Positions 352 through 61,429 of a stretch of DNA of 64,000 bases are shown in pieces. Both the position numbers and the translations under genes were made by a program. The first letter of the stretch is position 1, and each line of letters begins with the position of its first letter. Under the pieces are notes generated by a model. That model was not told the origin of the DNA. It saw only the letters and a list, made by a program, of their open reading frames with translations, and did no database searches. Source of the stretch: Cristatella mucedo (lineage: Eukaryota; Bryozoa; Phylactolaemata; Cristatellidae); assembly GCA_009760855.2 (NCBI GenBank), contig WPIO01000046.1, forward strand, positions 36,001 through 100,000. The letters are read 5' to 3'.

Positions 352-500
352 ATCTGGTTTGGTTCAGCGGTTAAAGGGCTCGCCCCGACCAAGGTCTGGC
401 TGAGGTCGTGGGCTCGATTGAGCCCGGAGGCATATGTGAAGCGCCTGAATAGAGATTAAGTTCTCTTGGGGCGCTGTACAAATGAATTGGATATTTTCTT
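352..500 (+). mobile_element. SINE1 (tRNA head plus L2-like tail)
   Basis: The head carries a box A-like TGGTTCAGCGG and a box B-like region around GGGCTCGA. The body continues into GTGAAGCGCCTGAATAGAG and GGCGCTGTACAAATGAATT. This is the full architecture of the SINE1 family: a pol III promoter head followed by a tail nearly identical to the family A LINE 3' end. Non-coding and presumably mobilised by the LINE. Confidence 0.85.
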
Positions 501-1954: not shown

Positions 1955-2165
1955 CTAGACTGCCACTAGCCACATTTGCATGCTGACCCTGTGCATGTCA
2001 CCCCTAACCATATTACTCATTTTGTTTGTTTATCAAGCATGATATTACTCACCATTCGATTGCATTTCCCTTTGCAGCAAATGTAAAGCGCATAGAAAGA
2101 GATTGAGTTCTCTGAGGGTGCTTTATCAAGTGCATTATTATTATTATTATTATTATTATTATCAA
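1955..2165 (+). mobile_element. L2-like family A 3' tail
   Basis: It contains GCCACTAGCCACATTTGC, TTTGCAGCAAATGTAAAGCG, the loop AGAAAGAGATTGAG and a terminal (ATT)7-8 microsatellite. Only the 3' UTR remains, so it is strongly 5'-truncated. Confidence 0.9.
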
Positions 2166-2699: not shown

Positions 2700-4500
2700 G
2701 TTGGCCACTGGCAGCTGCGTCTCCGAGGCCAAGTGGGTCGCTGCTTTAGATGCGATTAGACGGGTCGTGCTGTGCCTCTCGCCGTCGATTGAGAGCTTCC
2801 GTGGAAGACAGCATTGCTGGCCATTGGTCGTAAAAGTGTTCCCTCAGCAGAACTCGTAACATTCGCGATGAGGTCGGGCACTAGAAGTGCCCGAACCAAA
2901 GGGTCCGCTGGTACTTGGGCCGCAGGCCCGACAGTGGGGCTACGCAGGCTGCCGCCCATCTTTTCCAATCCGTTAATGTCTGTCATTCCGTAAGCAGCAG
3001 CGACTTCTTCAGCACCAAGGCTGCCTGCGGTCATGGCTTGAGTGCTCAAAGCAAGGCCGCTGCAGGCGAGGCGAAGTTTGTACCGTCGGTCGCCAGGCTT
3101 GGCTGTCAGTCTCGGCTCGCTGTCCTCGCTGGCGTCGGCATCGTCCTCTTCCAGATCTGGTACGGGGCCAGTCCGTCGCTGGTTTTGTCTGAGCAAACTA
3201 GCGAGCCGACAGTTTCTCCTCAGTTTGGCGACATCAGCCTTTCAACAGTATTGTCGTGTTCAGATACGATTGTCGTATCTTCTACAGCGACGTCGGTACT
3301 ACCAATGTTTACTATTCTCGGATCGGTAATCTGATTACTTCCTTGCTACATTGCTACGGTTCGTGGGGACCTGACTATGGTGGCACACTCTATCATTGAC
3401 ACGGTGACAACTCCTGCTGACTGGGCGAAAAACCGATATCGGAGACTCGTTAGCGGCATTGCGATTGGCTATAGAAATAGAGGAGAAGCAGGTACTCATT
3501 CGTCGAAGCGTCAGCGTTCGCTGTTCTGGCTTCATGCACGAGCTGACTCGTAAGCTCGAGATTGGTCTGCAGAACTGTTGGACGCACGCATGCAGCAGGA
3601 TTAGAATAGTCTCGCTTATGAACTGCTGGTGACTAGCATGGACCCGTCCTCTTTTTGGTTACTGGCGGATCGCAAATGACATGGCAGTTGTTATCTATGT
3701 ATATTTATGCAAGAAGTCGCACACCCGAAGATCGAATCGACAATACGGCAGGCAGTGTATTAACAATTGCAGGAAGCCACGAAAGAGCTAACGACCGTCA
3801 TGACCGATCCTAGCTCCTGAGAATCTCAAAGCGTGTCACTGGGTCCTCTGTTTTCCTTCTTCGACTTCCGCCGACGTAGTAGGCTCACGGGGTACTTCGG
3901 ACCCTACATCATTGCTAGGTTTTAGGGTTTTGTAAGTGCGGCACTCGCAGTACGTTACTGTAGCAATATTCTGCTGCATCGGGTCACGCGTAACGCAGGC
4001 ATGGCGAATTTATACATTCAGGTGCTCCGTACGCCACGCGCGATTTAAAGTGCCGGCCCGAGCCTAGCAGATGCCGTCGCTCGGCATGCTGCTCCTCAGG
4101 CGACGACCTCTTTAGAACCTGTCGGTTGAGCATGCTATGCCCGCTGCTCATAGCGAGGCTTGGAGGGTCTCATCATCACCGACATCCCTGACCGGAGACG
4201 CTCTATCGCTGGCTGCACATATTCAGTGCTAATAGTTAATACGACCCTCGTCGACCTCGTCGAATCCACCGCGGCACCCATTGCCCCTAACAGAAGCCGT
4301 CCAAGTTTGGCCTTCCGGGAGGCTCGGCATTGTTGCAAACCTGGTGTCGCTGCTGCTATGTCCGGACAGACTAGACCACAAACGCAGCGTTCGTAACAGC
4401 ACCGGTATCAGCTGACAGGCGACGAATGCCGGCGAAGGCCTGCAAGTTGTAATCACGGATGGCGACCTGTATGTACAGCACCAATGCACTCAGGTTAGCC
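2700..4500. other. No recognisable gene
   Basis: A minus-strand ORF of 146 codons (2756-3196) begins within an Asp/Glu-rich stretch, and a plus ORF overlaps it (2915-3334). Neither shows a family signature I can name. The remaining sequence to 4500 has only short ORFs. Confidence 0.3.
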
Positions 4501-4502
4501 GA

Positions 4503-6346
4503 TAGTAGCGTGTCGCCGTCTGTAACTCCACAAAGCCACAAAGACTAGGCGGGTGTTACGCTGGAGCGTTTTTTATAGCGTAGCACTCACAGCCTATGAG
4601 GTTTTCGGTACGCATTCTTTAGCCAATAGACTTCTTCTCACACAAAAAGAGAAAATGAGAAGCATAGCTGAATCAGGAGAGGAGTTGAAGTAGTGAGTAG
4701 CTTGGAAGTAAAAGTTTAGGACCACTGGAAATGAATGACTAGCTGATTCAACAGCCTCTTTTATATAGCGACAGAAGAGCCTTTACGGCTATCACCACCG
4801 CTTGAGGTGGCGATAAAGGATCGTCCAACACAGGATTTGAACCCACGACCTCGGGCCAAGGTCGTGAAAAGCAACCACCTTACCGAGTGAGCCATCACGG
4901 CTCACCAAGGAAAGGATGGGCCGTGGTCGGCAGCAGCAGAGTAGCTGTCGCTTCGTAAGACTTGTGAAAGTGAGTTCCAAAGTCTAGGACCCGCAGAGCA
5001 AACGTTTCTGTCGCCCACGGTCTTTAAGCTGTAGAATAGAACAGCTAATTTATTGACCATACAAGATCTGAGGGCACGAGGAGGCTGAAGCTGGTGCAGC
5101 AGTTCAGCTAGGTAAGAAGGAGCCAAGCTACGACAGGCCTTGTAGGGCAGTGTTAAAACTTTGCTTTGTTCCCGTTGATCAACCGGCAGCCACCCTAGCT
5201 CTTTTAGCAGAGGAGACACGTGGTCAAACCTCTGGGATTTGCAAACTAGCCTTGCAGCCATATTCATAGCCAGCTACAGTGGCCTAGTGGCTTTTTTAAT
5301 AGCTGAGCCAAAAGAGAATAGCAATAATGAAGCAGAGCCAGATCTATGGAGCTAGTTAAAGTTTACGCAACATATCTCCGTGGAAGACAGTTCCTAATTT
5401 TAGATAGGGATCGGACGAGATGGGTAGCTGTGGAAGCAGTCTTCTTAACGAAACTTGAAAATTTAGGCAGCTGCTAAAGGTGACACCTACATTCCGAGAG
5501 CATGGTCGCACAAAAGCGTCACCTTTTGGAAAAGCAAAGCCTTCTTGTCAAGCCACATGCTTAGGGTGTCCTATTAGCAGCGCTTCAGTTTTATCGTCGT
5601 TAGTTTAAGAAAATTTGCCCGTCATTCAGGATCGAATTTCGGCAAGGCAAGCATTCAGTTTATCAGTTGCTGTAGCAGATTCTGACGGTTTAAATGACAA
5701 GTACAGCTGAATATCGTCAGCATAAATGTGATATCCTATTCCATCGGCCTTTATAACTTTTCCCAGAGGTTGAGTAAAAATGGAGAACAGCAAGAGACTG
5801 AGGACGGACCCTTGAAGGACTCCGCAGGTGACTGGTCTGGTAGATGAGACCTGACCTCCGTACAACACGGATTTAACATGATCGGTAAAATGTAATATAA
5901 ACCACGCCAGTACCTCGTCTTCCAGATCGATTACTGCTCTCGATTGTTCAAGTAGGACATAGTGATCAATGGTGTCGAAGGCAGCTGATAGATCTTGCAG
6001 GGGTAGGGCTGTGACCTTCCCGTCATCGCTGGTGCATATGATGTCATTGGTTAGACAAAGAAGGGCAGTTTCAGTGGAGTGCTGCCGCTTTTTCCCCGAT
6101 TGCAATTTTTTTGAAATTGCAGTCTTCAATGTGTGCTACCAGCTGCTGAGCGACAATTTCTCAAGGAACTTTGGGAAAAAAGAAAAAAGGAAAACTGGGC
6201 GATGGTTTGCAAGGATCTCTGTCATCTAATCCATGCTTTTTTAAGTGTCGGTCTAACGATAGCCGACTTGAAGGACTTGAGTGCAACCCCTTTTTCCAGA
6301 AAAGCATCAACAATCTCGGTTATGGCTGGGCTAAGTTGGTCTGCCG
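4503..6346 (-). pseudogene. LINE family B, 5'-truncated, with nested SINE2
   Basis: On the minus strand the RT region is visible at 6129-5626, including AFDTIDHYVLL, GVLQGSVLSLLLFSI and the active-site YADDIQLYLSF. The C-terminal region (5267-4902) and 3' end (to 4503) follow. The two parts of the 3' end are separated by a SINE2 at 4741-4903. Frameshifts and stops break it. Unlike the long copy at 51-54 kb, both catalytic Asp residues of YADD are kept. Confidence 0.9.
4741..4903 (-). mobile_element. SINE2 inserted in LINE family B
   Basis: Minus-strand tRNA-like head (GCCGTGATGGCTCA start, GGGTTC box B) and the body CGCTATATAAAAGAGGCTG. The flanking LINE sequences GGAAATGA and GGAAAGGATG look like a decayed target duplication. 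The insertion post-dates this LINE copy. Confidence 0.85.
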
Positions 6347-6698: not shown

Positions 6699-6990
6699 CT
6701 TCTTACGCAACGACAACTTCTCTCCTGCTTCCGACTATGGCTCATCCTCTCCAGCGGTCCTGAGCTGCAACCTCCGTGCGACTCACTACGTCTACTGCTC
6801 TCCTCACTCTGCTAGGCTTCCAACTTTCTCTTTGTTGCGTGAGACGAAGTCTGTTGGCTACCGAATGCGCACCGAAAGCCGCTTAGGCTGTGAGTGCGCC
6901 ACACAAAACTCTCCTGCGTAACACCAACGTAGTGTTCGTTGCTTTTTGGAGTTACCGACGGAGATACGTTACGTTACATTACATAATTGC
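6699..6990 (+). mobile_element. LINE family B 3' end
   Basis: Encodes the terminal LINE tail (FLRND-like start, LLRETKSVGYRMRTESRL, ending QNSPA then TAA), followed by the 3' UTR with GGAGTTACCGACGGAG and ATTAC-type repeats. Strongly 5'-truncated. Confidence 0.85.
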
Positions 6991-7989
6991 ATCTTGTGTT
7001 GAATCCCTTTCCTGTTGATAAGCATTCTCGATACAGTTCATAGTTCTATACCCTGGGTCATTTTTAATATGCTAATAATGAAGAAAACTTTCATAATCTT
7101 ACTTAATTTTACTAAAAATGTGGAGGCAATAAACAGCACACATGCAGGCCCACAATATAGTGGCGCGTCTAGCTGGAGTTCAAATTTTAAGTGTTATCGG
7201 TAGCATTGCAAAGCATGCTGCAGGCCTACGACATATAAATATAACATAACAGAGGCGACAACAAAATGAGATCAGAACGCCAAGTGGCTTTGAGTAGCGC
7301 ATAATTTGCTGCGAAAGCCCGGCAGGTCGCCGAATAAGCCGAAAATGTATTGTGGAGCCTGCAATGACGCACGGCTCGAAACTCGCCCAAATGAATTCGG
7401 TGTGGGTTTCGCAGGCTTGACGAGCTTGTAGAGGAGATATCGCGGAGAAATGAGGACCAACTGCATGCAGCAGCATTTCTAAGGAGATGCGCGATAACTT
7501 ACCGATCGACTAAAACGCGAAATGCTGCAACTGGTGAGCCACGCCCCGGAAGTTCGCAGTTTCCAAGTCGGTCAGTTTTGACCACATTACGTTTTTTCTC
7601 ACGTTTTAACGTTAATTTTTACTCTTTTACTTCCTTAAAATGCCTCGCCTCGTCGTCGAGCGTCGCTGCGCCAGCGGCGACGCTCTCGTTAAAGGCTGCC
7701 TCTGCAATCTGCCGGCGGAGGTAGTGCCACCAATGGTTGCCGCTTTAGGCCGTTGGTGTAAGCATCTGCTTTGGGGGCAGCAGTTGTACTCAATGTATTA
7801 GCGGCCGTTGACGTACGCTTTTTATAGCTGAACCGTTCACCCAAGGTTCTTACGTATCCGCGTCGCCTGCGAAACCGCCTAAAGCTACTGCAATCCACGT
7901 GGACCTCAGCTGTTGGGTTTATAGATAGCACCGTGCAATTCGTATCCTTGTGTGACTACTGCTAGCTTAATGGGCTGAAGAAGGCCGCC
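6991..7989. other. No recognisable gene
   Basis: Unique-looking sequence between a LINE 3' end and a TIR element. ORFs under 100 codons on both strands show no domain. Confidence 0.35.
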
Positions 7990-11727: not shown

Positions 11728-12028
11728 GCATATTTCCCGACGACCATTGCTCTTACAGCCCTAACAGACTGCGAGGACGGCGAATTTCAGCCAGGCAAAA
11801 GAAAATGGCTGACGCCGAGCACAGAAGATGCTCTCTGACGCAGGACTGACGGCTTCCGCACCTACATGCTTTGTCGTGTAGCTGCATATATTCTGGAAAG
11901 TTAGGTAATGAGCAGCAGTGACCAGGCAACCTGACGAGGCTACTAGCGGTAAAGCGCGGATGACCTGCAACAGTAGTCAGTCTTCTTTTCGACCGCTGCC
12001 GGTCTGCTGTACAGATAGTTTCAGTGGG

Positions 12029-12383
12029 TAATAATAATAATAATAATATTGCACTTGATAAAGCGCCCTCAGAGAACTTAATCTCTTTCTAGGCGCTTTA
12101 CATTTGCTGCAAAGTGATACGCAATAGAATAGTAAGTAAAATCATGCTTGAAAAACAAACAAAATGAATAACATGGTTAGGGGTGACATGCACAGGGTCA
12201 GCATGCAAATGTGGTTAGTGGCAGCATGCACAGTGTCAGCACGCATAAGCACATCGAGGACGAATCACAAGGACCCACTAAATGCTGTCCTAAATAGGTA
12301 TGTTTTTAAGTTTCTTTTAAATGTGGTCAGGTCAGGGGATGTTCTGATGCAGGTCGGGAGGGAGTTCCAGGCTGTGGGAGCAG
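12029..12383 (-). mobile_element. L2-like family A 3' end
   Basis: Begins on the plus strand with (ATA)n, then the reverse complement of the 3' stem-loop (AAGCGCCCTCAGAGAAC ... GGCGCTTTAC). It extends into the coding tail (AWNSLPTCIRTSPDLTTFKR on minus). 5'-truncated at about 12383. Confidence 0.9.
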
Positions 12384-17984: not shown

Positions 17985-18047
17985 TAATAAATAATAATAA
18001 TAATGCACTTGATAAAGCGCCCTCAGAGAACTAAATCTCTTTCTAGC
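17985..18047 (-). mobile_element. L2-like family A tail fragment
   Basis: (ATA)n then TGCACTTGATAAAGCGCCCT and AGAGAACTAAATCTCTTTCTAG: only the last about 60 bp of the LINE 3' end, antisense. Confidence 0.9.

Positions 18048-24342: not shown

Positions 24343-24420
<78 letters not shown>
24343..24420. repeat. (AT)n microsatellite
   Basis: Nearly pure TA dinucleotides with one C, adjoining the tail of the antisense SINE1 that follows; probably grown from its AT-rich tail. Confidence 0.95.
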
Positions 24421-24421
<1 letters not shown>

Positions 24422-24552
24422 CCTATACATAGCGCCCCAAGAGAACGTGATCTCTATTCAGGCGCTTCACATATGCCTCGGGGCTCGAGCCGACGACCTC
24501 AGTCAGTCCTTGGTCGGAGCGAGCACCTTAACCGCTAGACCAAACCAGCAGC
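24421..24552 (-). mobile_element. SINE1 copy
   Basis: Antisense order: AATTCCTATACATAGCGCCC tail, GGCGCTTCACATATGCC junction, GAGCGAGCACCTTAACCGC head, ending CCAAACCAG. Full length. Confidence 0.88.
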
Positions 24553-24591: not shown

Positions 24592-24845
24592 CGCGCTAGT
24601 GTGGCCCAGTGTTTAAGGTGCTCGCCCCGATCAAGGTCTTGCCGAGGTCGTGGGCTCGAGCCCCACGGCATACAAGGATGATATAACTCACCATTCAATT
24701 GCATTTCCCTTTGCAGCAAATGTAAAGTGCCTAGAAAGAGATTGAATTCTCTGAGGGTGCTTTATCAAGTGCGTTGTTATTATTATTATTATGTGAAGCG
24801 CCTGAATTGAGAAAGTTCTCTTAGGGCGCTATACAAATTAATTAT
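24592..24845 (+). mobile_element. SINE1 split by an L2 tail
   Basis: The SINE1 head (CTAGTGTGGCCCAGTG to CCCCACGGCATAC) ends at about 24673. The SINE1 tail resumes at 24793 (GTGAAGCGCCTGAATTGAG ... CGCTATACAAATTAATTA). Between them lies a 120-bp piece of family A LINE 3' end. The break is at the junction between the tRNA-like head and the LINE-like tail. Confidence 0.85.
24673..24792 (+). mobile_element. L2-like family A tail nested in SINE1
   Basis: ACTCACCATTCAATTGCATT, GCAGCAAATGTAAAGTGCC, the stem-loop and a (TTA)n end. It lies in the same orientation as the host SINE. Confidence 0.88.
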
Positions 24846-31049: not shown

Positions 31050-31424
31050 GAGTTGCGCGCCAGAGTTGCGCGCCAGAGTTGCGCGCCAGAGTGGCGCGCC
31101 AGAGTGGCGCGCCAGAGTGGCGCGCCAGAGTGGCGCGCCAGAGTGGCGCGCCAGAGTTTCGCGCCAGAGTGCCGCGCCAGAGTGGCGCGCCAGAGTGGCG
31201 CGCCAGAGTGGCGCGCCAGAGTGGCGCGCCAGAGTGGCGCGCCAGAGTGGCGCGCCAGAGTGGCGCGCCAGAGTGGCGCCAGAGTGGCGCGCCAGAGTGG
31301 CGCGCCAGAGTGGCGCGCCAGAGTGGCGCGCCAGAGTGGCGCGCCAGAGTGGCGCGCCAGAGTGGCGCGCCAGAGTGGCGCGCCAGAGTTGCGCGCCAGA
31401 GTTGCGCGCCAGAGTTGCGCGCCA
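31050..31424. repeat. 13-bp GC-rich minisatellite, 29 copies
   Basis: Unit GAGTGGCGCGCCA, with 28 full units and one 11-bp unit at 31271 that lacks one GC step. The first three and last three units carry GAGTTG instead of GAGTGG; two internal units vary (31154, 31167). Each unit contains the self-complementary octamer GGCGCGCC. Because 13 is not a multiple of 3, three units make a 13-residue repeat, and plus-strand ORFs stay open in all three frames. I treat them as by-products, not a protein gene. Confidence 0.95.
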
Positions 31425-31667
31425 GAGTTGCCGGCGAGCTCGTCAAGCGCTCATGTCTTATCTCTACGTAGAACCTCATCATGCCGACGTCTGAGAATGA
31501 ATGAAAACGTCGCAAGCCGCTTACTGGCGGACGCGCGCTGGTGACTGCACGTCCGGTGCGCTAGCTAGCGACGCATACGCTCTTACGTGAATGCGACGCA
31601 CACGGCTCGGGCTTGCCATTTTTCGGGAGCGTGTGAATGCCGGCTACTTGCTCACTCTAAGCACTGC

Positions 31668-58324: not shown

Positions 58325-58330
58325 GAAGAG
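58325..58330. other. Target-site duplication, left (GAAGAG)
   Basis: GAAGAG directly precedes the element's AGT end and is repeated at 61423-61428. Confidence 0.85.
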
Positions 58331-58426
58331 AGTAGCAGTGTCGTGGCTTACCTAGCGCAAGAGCTGGCTCGCTGTCCCAGCGGATTTTTAGCCAAACTCC
58401 GCCGTTCCAGCGTCCTAGCTCCGAGC
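58331..58426. repeat. Left terminal inverted repeat
   Basis: Starts AGTAGCAGTGTCGTGGC and includes GCTCGCTGTCCCAGCGGATT and TTTTTAGCCAAA. Its outer 40 bp is also inverted-complementary to 58421-58450 just inside, so the left end could fold into a long hairpin. A GCGGA...TCCGC mini-stem lies in the loop. Confidence 0.88.
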
Positions 58427-58526
58427 TAGCTGTTCCATAACACTACTACTTAGCGTAGCTCAATTGTGCGCTAGTGCGCTGAGTGGGTATAGTTATTTTC
58501 GAAAGTTTTCTACAAGTATATAAAGA

Positions 58527-58935
58527 ATGAGTCAGCACCCTGATGTCACTAGACGAAATCGTAGCGAGTCTTTTACCAGTATGCTACTAGAATGGTTGAT
58601 GCATGTCATTCTCTTTTTGATGTTAAACCTAAATATCCACGATCTAATGTCATTCTTAATGATCTTTTGCAAGATATTAAGCTTTCAAAGGATGAAGAAG
58701 GTTCTAAGGGAAAGTCTATTTTTATGAAGAAATCTGTCACTTCTAAATGGGTGCCTACTGCTAAATCACTTGCTGAATTTTATAGGTATAGATACAATGC
58801 TTATTGTCGTCTCGTAATGGTTCCTGACATGCTTTATAATATAATTATACCTTCTCTTAGCGATCTTATCTAACCAACTCTGAAGACTTATCCAAATTTT
58901 AGGTTTCAACTAGCTTTTGAAGTTACTGTTAAACG
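58527..58935 (+). pseudogene. Polinton-like ORF fragment 1, unknown protein
   Basis: Starts MSQHPDVTRRNRSESFTSML in one frame, is continued from about 58592 in another (a frameshift), and stops at 58873. Further weakly matching sequence in a third register follows to about 58935. The product is polar with YRYRYNAYCRLVMVPDML near its end. I cannot assign a family. Probably the 5'-most gene of the element, and broken. Confidence 0.45.
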
Positions 58936-58961
58936 TGATAACTGACTTGAATAGGTAATAG

Positions 58962-59022
58962 TAATGATAATGTAATAATAACACACTTGATAAAGCGCTC
59001 TCAGAGAAAATGAGTCTGTTAA
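58962..59022 (-). mobile_element. L2-like tail inside the Polinton-like element
   Basis: ATGTAATAATAACACACTTG, ATAAAGCGCTCTCAGAGAAA: the antisense terminal 60 bp of the LINE family A 3' end. Confidence 0.75.
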
Positions 59023-59050
59023 TAATTGAGCTGCTTGGTCTTTTGAACAA

Positions 59051-59341
59051 ATGAGGCTGAGAATCGGAGGACTTGAAGTTGAATCGTACAATACTGACTA
59101 TGGAATGACTGTAACTTTTACAGTTCTAGGAGCACTAATGTATCCTAGCGATTATAATAGGGGTGAGGGATTGACGTCATTTTGGAGAAAGGATGAAGGT
59201 GCTGCTGATTTAAATTGCTTTCCAGGAGCAGGAAATGCTGCAGCCGCTGATACTAATCCTCCTTGTGCTACTGCTACTGCAGATGGTTTTGCTGCAACAA
59301 ATGTTAGCATGGTTGATGCGGAAGCTAGTGTCAACCAGTGA
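59051..59341 (+). pseudogene. Polinton-like ORF fragment 2, structural-protein-like
   Basis: Open for 96 codons. Beta-rich opening (LRIGGLEVESYNTDYGMTVT) then an Ala/Asn/Gly-rich segment. It could belong to a virion-like structural protein, but there is no diagnostic motif. Its start codon sits just after the L2 insertion, so the true N-terminus is probably lost. Confidence 0.4.
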
Positions 59342-59344
59342 AAT

Positions 59345-59740
59345 TCTGCATTTCGATAGGATTTCAGGATTTTACGCAGGCATGGATAACGATATGTAGA
59401 AAAGTTAAGAAATATATTAGCAATCAGACTATAGAATTATGAACACCATTACCTTTTGGAAAAACGTTTGAACTAATAGTCACAAAGTTGCTTGAAATGA
59501 AATTTAAAAGTATCACAACTAATGCTAATGACTGCTTTTCTTAAGATGAATGTTATCGTTATAGTCCTGATGGTATGATTTATGATGGAGAGTCTAAAAA
59601 ACTTGTATAAATGATATGTCTATGATCTAGACGCTTGATTAAAGATGAGATACTTCTGCAATATGAAGCGCAATGGACTTTACGTATTAGAAACGGAAGA
59701 ATGCTTCTTCTGCAAATTTGAAATCTAAATCCCAGTTTTT
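59345..59740 (+). pseudogene. YqaJ / lambda-exonuclease-like nuclease fragment
   Basis: One frame contains YSPDGMIYDGESKKLV (SPDG codons 59563-59574), the first catalytic-Asp block of PD-(D/E)XK exonucleases of the YqaJ type. Directly after it, where the second block with its Glu and Lys would lie, a stop codon (59608-59610) interrupts. Further on, a Q.EAQ-type segment and TEECFF in another frame fit the downstream Q...QM...T...C.F region of the family. Several stops and frameshifts; not functional. Such nucleases take part in recombination or replication of phages and large DNA viruses. Confidence 0.6.
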
Positions 59741-59921
59741 AAATTGCTTTAATAAACCTAAATATTATATTGCAGCTGGAAAAGTTAAAATACCAAAAGA
59801 AGAAGAAGTTGAAGTTCCAATAATTAATTCTTGTTTTTATACCTTCTCAAGAATAAGAGGCATAATAATTTTGAGTTTGGTCCAATATCTGAACATGGCA
59901 GATTCAATAATAAGAAAATAA
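59718..59921 (+). pseudogene. Polinton-like ORF fragment 3
   Basis: 67 codons, Lys/Glu-rich centre (KVKIPKEEEVEVP). May be the C-terminal end of the nuclease gene or the start of another gene. Confidence 0.35.
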
Positions 59922-60097
59922 AAGGAAATTTCATCAAATTTTACGTTAAAAATGTGCATACAAACAGTTAGAGAACCTGACAAAAATAGATTTGAGAGAT
60001 TGGTTCTATCAGTCATAGAAGTAGTTAATAAAGCTTAAGTTTAACTTTGTAATATATAATGCTCAGGAAATGAGACTACATTGCCAGCGTCTGTGAA

Positions 60098-61060
60098 ATG
60101 AGATACACAGACTTGGATATTAGTGGCAATAAAGTTGTAAATGTTAAGGATCCAGTATATCCTGGAGATGGTTTGGTCCAGCATTTAAGGTGCTCGCCCC
60201 GACCATTGTCTGGCTGAGGTCGTAGGCTCGAGCCCTGAAGCACATGTGAAGCGCCTGAACAGAGATTAAGCTCTCTTGGGGCGCTATACAAATTAATTAT
60301 ATTTGGAGAATGTAAATAAAAAGTATGCAGATCAGAACTTTTCAAGATTATCCATTACGACTACCGCATCTACGTTTGATTGCTTATGTAACAAATTAAT
60401 ATAGGCGCTGCTGTTAATGCTAAATATTTGGTTGTTAAAATTCAACTGGATTCCAAAGGTAATAGATTAAGTTACCGTTAGAGATGCAACGACTGGATAT
60501 TTAAACATGGGAAGATTTGCTATAACGTCAACTTATTGGAAAACGACTTCTACTAATCCTTCCACTCTATGGGTGACTTTTGCTTTGTGTATGTAGGTAT
60601 GAAACGAGGTGTTATTGTAAAATTTGTTCCGGTAGGTTGTGACCAAAACACGGGTAATAATACGATAACCAATGACATTAATCCCACCAATCCACTCAAT
60701 GCCGCTAACAAATCTTATGCTGACAAAGCTGATGGTAGAAGAGTTGGCGAAGTAGTAGTACTGTCATTACGTGGAACTATGATGCAATGTGTAATACCTT
60801 TCTCTTTCTCTACAAGCTACACTTGGACCATTACTGATAAACATCCTGTAAGAATAGTTTTTTAACATGTAGTCGGAGGTAATAACTGCGTAAATTAATC
60901 TCAAAACTTGAATATTACGTTACCAGCTGGTGATATATGGATAATTTATGTTCATGGAGGATTGATATACCAAGCCGGGTTTACTAGATTCCAGTTGGGT
61001 TTAAAGGTATTGGTGGTACTGGAAACAAAGATGTCAATCTTCTAATCAGCTACATAGTTA
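60098..61060 (+). pseudogene. Fibre-like protein remnant, split by a SINE1
   Basis: Before the SINE: DLDISGNKVVNVKDPVYPGD (60109-60169). After it: ENVNKKYADQN (60306 on). A second such repeat, INPTNPLNAANKSYADKAD, lies in the 60569-60865 ORF. The pattern N(L/V)..P..P.DA..K.Y.D is typical of tail-fibre and baseplate-spike proteins of tailed phages. After the second repeat comes a beta-rich end with PFSFSTSYTWTITDKHPVR and, beyond a stop, AGDIWIIYVHGGLIYQAGFT. The resemblance suggests a trimeric fibre; the host role is inferred. Frameshifts and stops make it a pseudogene. Confidence 0.55.
60170..60303 (+). mobile_element. SINE1 in the fibre-like gene
   Basis: TGGTTTGGTCCAGCATTTAA, GCCCCGACCATTGTCTGGCT, GAAGCGCCTGAACAGAGATT, GGCGCTATACAAATTAATTA. 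Flanks TGGAGATG and TGGAGAATG form a target duplication differing by one base, so the insertion is recent relative to SINE1 divergence. Confidence 0.9.
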
Positions 61061-61326
61061 CATGAATAATGTAGATGAAATATTATAAATGATAGCTTTC
61101 GGAACTGTGTGATATTCGTTTCATAATTAGTAGTGTTAAAGATCATGATAATCACTTCAACTATCTTGTAAAATAAATCTGAACACGTAGATTCGATGAA
61201 TGGAGTGCATTCGCAGCTAGTTAGTGTCAACTTCAAGAGGCACAGTGTCATCCTCATCAATCTCACAGTCATCTGGCTCTTCTGGCGTCTCTGGCTAATT
61301 TAGACTATTAACGCCTGTCCAGATTG

Positions 61327-61422
61327 GCTCGAAGCTAGGATGCTGGGTGGGCGGATTTTGGCTAAAAATTCGCTGGGACAGCGAGCTAGCTCTTTACCAA
61401 GGTTCGCCATAACACTAGTACT
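61327..61422. repeat. Right terminal inverted repeat
   Basis: GCTCGAAGCTAGGATGCTGG to GCCATAACACTAGTACT; complements 58331-58426. GGCTAAAAATTCGCTGGGAC is the best-conserved block. GAAGAG follows at 61423-61428. Confidence 0.88.
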
Positions 61423-61429
61423 GAAGAGA

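Follow-up and report, generated by a model that had tools for sequence, protein, structure and literature searches.

A probable decayed Polinton copy in Cristatella mucedo, and the YqaJ and fibre cargo and palindromic ends of its better preserved relatives

The stretch of DNA analysed here, called the window throughout, comprises 64,000 nucleotides of the bryozoan Cristatella mucedo (assembly GCA_009760855.2, contig WPIO01000046.1, positions 36,001 to 100,000 of the forward strand). At window positions 58331-61422 it contains an element of 3,092 bp, flanked by perfect copies of GAAGAG, which is very probably an internally deleted and decayed copy of a Polinton. Polintons replicate their DNA by protein priming, encode a double jelly-roll (DJR) capsid protein and carry an integrase whose joining to the target is staggered by 6 bp. 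Taken alone, the window element is an ordinary fossil, which encodes nothing whole and probably never moved in its 3.1-kb form. The Polintons of the genome in which it lies (572 Mb, 688 contigs) are a variant worth following, both for their terminal palindromes and for their YqaJ and fibre cargo.

The ends of the element show the inverted AG...CT termini and the 6-bp target duplication known from Polintons. The two arms are identical at 78 of 96 positions, and a search within the window pairs them at E 1.7e-20; the first bases of the element are AGTA and the last TACT. The chance of the flanking hexamer match alone is 1/4096 by a simple count. The GC content is 35% in the interior of the element and 48-49% in its flanks. 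The features are listed below with reference to relatives in the same genome, namely copy B (L006, L009 and L013, contig C222, minus strand), copy C (L010 and L008, contig C244), a solitary repeat (L007) and the better preserved Polinton L044/L045 (contig C321).

58325..58330, no strand: left target-site duplication GAAGAG, by direct reading.
58331..58426, plus strand: left terminal inverted repeat (TIR), 96 bp in common with the right end; copies at L010 5538, L007 4938 and, without the outermost 45 bp, L006 5024.
58331..58450, plus strand: imperfect terminal palindrome of 120 bp, AGTAG...CTACT, folding end to end (z -3.9; 0 of 200 shuffles as stable).
58517..58525, plus strand: TATA-like box between the palindrome and the PolB start, by direct reading; the ends of L010, L006 and L008 have a similar box.
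58592..58955 (end approximate), plus strand: N-terminal remnant of the protein-primed DNA polymerase B (PolB); element 46-627 matches L006 5024-4426 at 80%.
58956..59008, no strand: host repeat tail of 53 bp at the PolB/capsid deletion junction; also at window 2108-2161, 12028-12076, 17995-18030, 24747-24791 and others.
59018..59335, plus strand: DJR major capsid protein fragment; 35% over 106 amino acids to the PF21738 gene of L044 (E 3.8e-15), with many genomic copies.
59407..59920, plus strand: YqaJ-type nuclease remnant with stops and frameshifts; 45% over 92 amino acids to the L044 YqaJ (PF09588, E 3.2e-16); copy B at L009 366-5.
60074..61040, plus strand: phage-tail-fibre-like gene remnant; 36% over 121 amino acids to the L044 fibre (PF03906, E 8.3e-17); copy B at L013 9824-8884.
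60169..60304, no strand: repeat within the fibre gene resembling a short interspersed nuclear element (SINE), a name that rests on a tRNA-like stretch judged by eye; also at window 355-496 and 24414-24547, and missing from copy B at that point (L013 9705/9702).
61327..61422, minus strand: right TIR, with the 96-bp similarity only and no inner palindrome arm, by arm comparison and folding.
61423..61428, no strand: right target-site duplication GAAGAG, by direct reading.

The remnants thus succeed one another as PolB N-terminus, capsid fragment, YqaJ and fibre, the last three in the order found in L044/L045. The original prediction, made on the window alone, had described flush 96-bp AGT...ACT inverted ends, a perfect GAAGAG duplication and remnants of a YqaJ-type nuclease and a phage-fibre-like protein, and all of these are borne out; its statement that PolB and capsid genes were absent was wrong, both being recognised by way of the relatives. 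The PolB remnant consists of the open reading frame (ORF) 58592-58870 together with the codons that follow; the DNA similarity to copy B extends to L006 4426, and the part alignable as PolB starts near 4445. About 0.3 kb separates the fibre remnant from the right TIR, and the integrase-like region of L044 finds no match there. The window has no match in Rfam and the element none among phage records, no relative of it was found in IMG/VR, and a 98-residue piece of the window fibre matched nothing in the protein database under a length rule that excluded full-length fibres.

The assignment to PolB and to Polintons goes via the relatives, because the Pfam and PHROGs models give no convincing match to the window pieces or to the stretches of copies B and C that hold PolB. 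The left end of the element matches three other places in the genome and its first ORF three further ones. Copy B is a longer relative with PolB, which aligns with element positions 46-627 at 80%, 1161-1515 at 79% and 1521-2888 at 73-75% in three pieces; the interval 627-1161 occupies 14,060 bp in copy B versus 534 bp in the window, and part of these 14 kb holds ORFs that by eye resemble the reverse transcriptase of a long interspersed nuclear element. In copy C, about 9.5 kb hold a complete left end followed by the start of PolB, the end of a fibre gene and an integrase-like region, together with a second, inverted end. When translated with X at stops and compared by tblastn with 30 PF03175 (viral-type DNA polymerase B) loci of the genome, the frames of copy B match to E 2e-41 (33.8% over 293 columns), and those of copy C match at E 1e-22. 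In L044/L045, ORFs match PF21738 (DJR-like, 2.3e-12), PF09588 (YqaJ, 3e-8), PF03906 (T7 tail fibre, 2.2e-8) and PF03175 (1.9e-19). The genes run capsid, YqaJ, T7-tail-like fibre and integrase-like region, with PolB on the opposite strand at the other side of the element; six further frames scanned gave no convincing family. The integrase-like regions of L044 and copy C match each other (tblastn E 5e-14). As regards a packaging ATPase, a 35-residue match of copy B (E 0.004) lies near an ORF of another Polinton, L046/L047, that has weak, sub-cut-off P-loop matches. The original prediction had held that longer relatives with the same TIR and the standard genes would support a Polinton; this check was positive in that relatives with PolB were found, an integrase being not firmly shown. 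At L007 4938-5021 a solitary 84-bp terminal repeat of the window's family adjoins repeat tails, with no element found alongside.

The element measures 3,092 bp, below the 15-20 kb of Polintons, and comparison with copy B, L044 and the copies on C442 and C55 accounts for this by deletions. The first of them joins PolB to capsid at the 53-bp tail, which recurs at ten other places of the window and elsewhere in the genome and is taken to be a truncated retroelement. A search with 58900-59480 listed 45 matches including the window (40 of 661 candidates scored): more than 20 of those listed contain the capsid part only, one (copy C) the PolB part only, and the window alone both. The deletions look local because this junction occurs in no other match listed. 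Capsid and YqaJ stand farther apart on C442 and C55 than in the window, by 0.93 and 0.98 kb, and the second deletion therefore lies within the capsid gene. The third probably entered the right TIR, because the ends of copy C are similar to one another over about 200 bp (150/194), versus 96 bp at the right end of the window element. The deletions, the insertion and the stops read as decay in place, whatever their order.

Several observations weigh against a decayed Polinton. Neither integrase nor ATPase nor protease was found in the window, no search having been aimed at the protease. Scans of 10 window pieces gave nothing convincing with Pfam (one match at E 0.1) or of window pieces with PHROGs (two matches, E 0.22 and 0.25), and Pfam scans of single ORFs or frames of copies B and C gave no polymerase match. 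In L044 itself, the integrase-like region 3' of the fibre reaches rve only at E 0.01, below the cut-off. In copy B the left end is incomplete, its outermost 45 bp being absent, and a right end was not found; copy C shows no clear 6-bp duplication, so that its two ends may belong to different elements. Finally, as 40 of 661 candidates were scored, a second short copy with the same junction could be missed.

The wider survey places the window's YqaJ and fibre remnants among the ordinary contents of Polintons in this genome. PF03175 has at least 33 matches there (91 of 400 candidates scored) and 0 in 14 control genomes. PF09588 has at least 150 (150 of 270 candidates scored) and occurs in 2 of the 14 control genomes, both bacteria. 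Among the matches listed, a YqaJ match lies within 20 kb of 13 of the 33 PolB places, for an expectation of 0.01 per place, and none lies within 20 kb of the remaining 20. YqaJ is a regular Polinton cargo in this genome. The gene remnants had been called unusual in the original prediction, a description that does not fit a genome where YqaJ accompanies PolB at these 13 places and where both better preserved Polintons carry fibre-like genes. In L046/L047 there are three fibre-like ORFs: one has a PF03906 match above the cut-off (5.6e-8), another a weak match (0.028), and the last is recognised by eye only. The L044 fibre has 12 matches in the protein database (E 1e-12 to 5e-4), none informatively named, and the L044 capsid ORF has nothing there at E 0.001.

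Three side observations belong to this survey. Most of the YqaJ matches listed are not close to any listed PolB place, and some may sit in other elements. The L047 ORFs at 5011-6201 and 6789-7553 have weak, sub-cut-off matches to Adeno_PX (E 0.025) and a phospholipase A2-like family (E 0.0078). The top three PF03175 places (C442:888011, C668:1245460 and C226:3404, that is L014, L015 and L016) contain 6, 2 and 2 in-frame TGA codons, with one TAG besides in the first, which would suit a polymerase derived from a replicon that decodes TGA as an amino acid, for instance a linear mitochondrial plasmid.

The left end of the window element shares its palindromic anatomy with other Polinton ends of the genome. 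Within its own family, the L010 end folds from the first to the last base (z -5.8) and the L008 end over most of its length (z -4.3). Two other families have hairpins of 110-125 bases upstream of PolB, in L046 and L057 (z -8.4 and -8.1) and in L045 and L021 (z -7.6 and -6.0). The termini of these families are judged from the homology starts of their PolB-side ends: the copies are alike over 450 columns (95.6%) and 412 columns (92.0%) respectively, and the hairpins are taken as terminal because in both families this homology begins at the first paired base or at most 3 bases away. The ends of the three families mostly align with one another no better than shuffles, the window end scoring slightly above them against L021 and L045. 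The strength of the case lies here, in that the three families share one anatomy although their terminal sequences differ. Within families, the evidence that pairing is selected for is thin. Two-sided changes that keep a pair affect 2 of 48 pairs in one of the other families and 2 of 49 in the second; in the window's family they affect 0 of 57, 51 and 53, and one slid control there shows 1. On this evidence we consider evenly poised the proposal that the Polintons of this genome end in long palindromes kept as hairpins despite sequence change, that is, in foldback, telomere-like ends on a PolB-type element, such as are otherwise known from parvoviruses. Ends of this kind would act in replication, priming it by snapping back or protecting the termini, or would offer the terminal protein or the integrase a symmetric site.

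It is rather unlikely that these palindromes are accidental, or not kept by selection, and not general to the families. Several observations point that way. The right terminal 120 bp of the window element gives no single-hairpin fold (z -0.6), and the window's family has, beside its lack of two-sided changes, 14, 13 and 17 pairs formed in one copy only; in the other families such pairs (6 of 48 and 2 of 49) are at least as many as the two-sided changes. No clear inner arm is seen by eye in L051 and L055. The window holds ten palindromes scoring at least 20, and the element end, with 21, is the ninth of them. Against an accident, however, stand the little or no likeness between the ends of the three families that nevertheless share such a palindrome just 5' of PolB, its coincidence with the homology start in two of them, the absence of any two-sided change in all 12 slid controls of the two other families' comparisons, and the fact that seven of the ten window palindromes sit in tandem arrays. 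In 30 PolB loci, two palindromes score at least 20, one being the L021 end and the other a low-complexity stretch; these loci extend no farther than some 1.5 kb from the PolB domain, and most element ends therefore fall outside them. L053 retains a short arm pair of 16 columns with a different loop. As a separate observation, window 31050-31428 is a tandem array of 29 copies of the 13-bp unit GAGTGGCGCGCCA, 97% matching.

For the window element itself, the flush ends and the perfect 6-bp duplication around the 3.1-kb form would also suit a short non-autonomous derivative that was deleted first and then mobilised as a unit by the enzymes of a full-length relative. This is quite improbable: the PolB/capsid junction is unique to the window among the 45 matches listed (40 of 661 candidates scored), a host repeat tail stands at that point, and the inner arm is missing from the right TIR. 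At 19% divergence about 28% of hexamers would still be perfect (0.81^6), and therefore recent movement is not required. It is hardly credible that the element is a small DNA virus, endogenised as it stood, whose hairpin ends resemble those of parvoviruses and whose compact gene set is its own. Its 3.1 kb falls within the size range of small DNA viruses and its terminal palindrome of 120 bp folds over the full length, but the fragments of PolB N-terminus, DJR capsid, YqaJ and fibre lie in Polinton order, each gene in the window is partial, these genes are more fully preserved in other genomic copies, and the Pfam scan of the 10 window pieces gave no match to parvovirus NS1/SF3 helicase or capsid. 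Once PolB had been recognised in copies B and C, an unusual small virus was no longer considered. Of the three origins left open by the original prediction, the PolB relatives and the gene order favour the internal deletion derivative; a small new lineage and an endogenised small DNA virus find no support.

The history we propose for the decayed Polinton begins with a longer element, which would have inserted at GAAGAG, presumably through its integrase, and left the 6-bp duplication and the ends that are read in the window. The PolB body through the start of the capsid would then have been lost, with the repeat tail at the junction, as would about 0.95 kb within the capsid gene, the integrase and the inner part of the right TIR; the SINE-like repeat would have inserted into the fibre, and the genes would have gathered stops and frameshifts. 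The better preserved relatives, by analogy with known Polintons, would be linear DNAs copied by PolB with protein priming, packaged by the DJR capsid, attached by the fibre, processed at their ends or in recombination by YqaJ, and integrated by the integrase. In single-stranded intermediates, their self-complementary ends may form foldbacks. A palindrome copied arm to arm would keep its arms complementary; its possible functions are end protection, priming at the ends and symmetric binding of a protein.

With the Polintons/Mavericks (polintoviruses) of animals the system shares the 6-bp duplication, AGT...ACT ends, protein-primed PolB and DJR capsid; it differs in that the window copy is 3.1 kb and broken, and in that the better preserved Polintons of this genome carry YqaJ, a phage-tail-like fibre and terminal palindromes. 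With parvoviruses it shares a terminal palindrome of about 120 nt able to fold back, which is the length of the parvovirus terminal hairpin, and with bidnaviruses a Polinton-type PolB, but no parvovirus gene was found in the window element. Protist Polinton-like viruses (PLVs) resemble it in their phage-like fibres, TIRs and 5-6-bp duplications and differ in their hosts.

In the available text of the literature, vertebrate Mavericks have (AGT)2//(ACT)2 and (AG)3//(CT)3 end motifs and perfect 6-bp duplications (PMC8097293), and cryptophyte PLVs have bacteriophage-like fibre proteins, TIRs of several hundred bp and 5-6-bp duplications (PMC12220804). A virophage with a phage tail collar domain is described (PMC3671162), and bidnaviruses have a Polinton-type PolB and inverted terminal repeats that form no parvovirus-like hairpins (PMC4061559). 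Within the same available text, the terms hairpin and fiber are absent from PMC8097293 and PMC4028283, palindrom from PMC8097293, and YqaJ, hairpin and palindrom from PMC12220804. By word search, hairpin is absent from PMC4642659 and PMC11253617 and YqaJ from PMC11071308 and PMC4642659. In PMC11071308 hairpin appears only in the title of a cited work, whose subject is a linear mitochondrial plasmid's deletion derivative, and PMC6431247 uses the word for Helitrons; YqaJ appears once in PMC11253617, for Nucleocytoviricota. A long terminal hairpin on Polintons was not found described in the literature so searched, by word and passage.

In conclusion, the window copy points to Polintons of its host that often carry YqaJ and phage-like fibres, three families of which have palindromes that start at the element boundary or next to it. 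If the same were true in other hosts, it would bear on the way in which Polinton ends are copied and protected. It would also bear on the proposal that bidnaviruses descend from a parvovirus and a Polinton, since hairpin ends would then cease to be a mark of the parvovirus parent alone.

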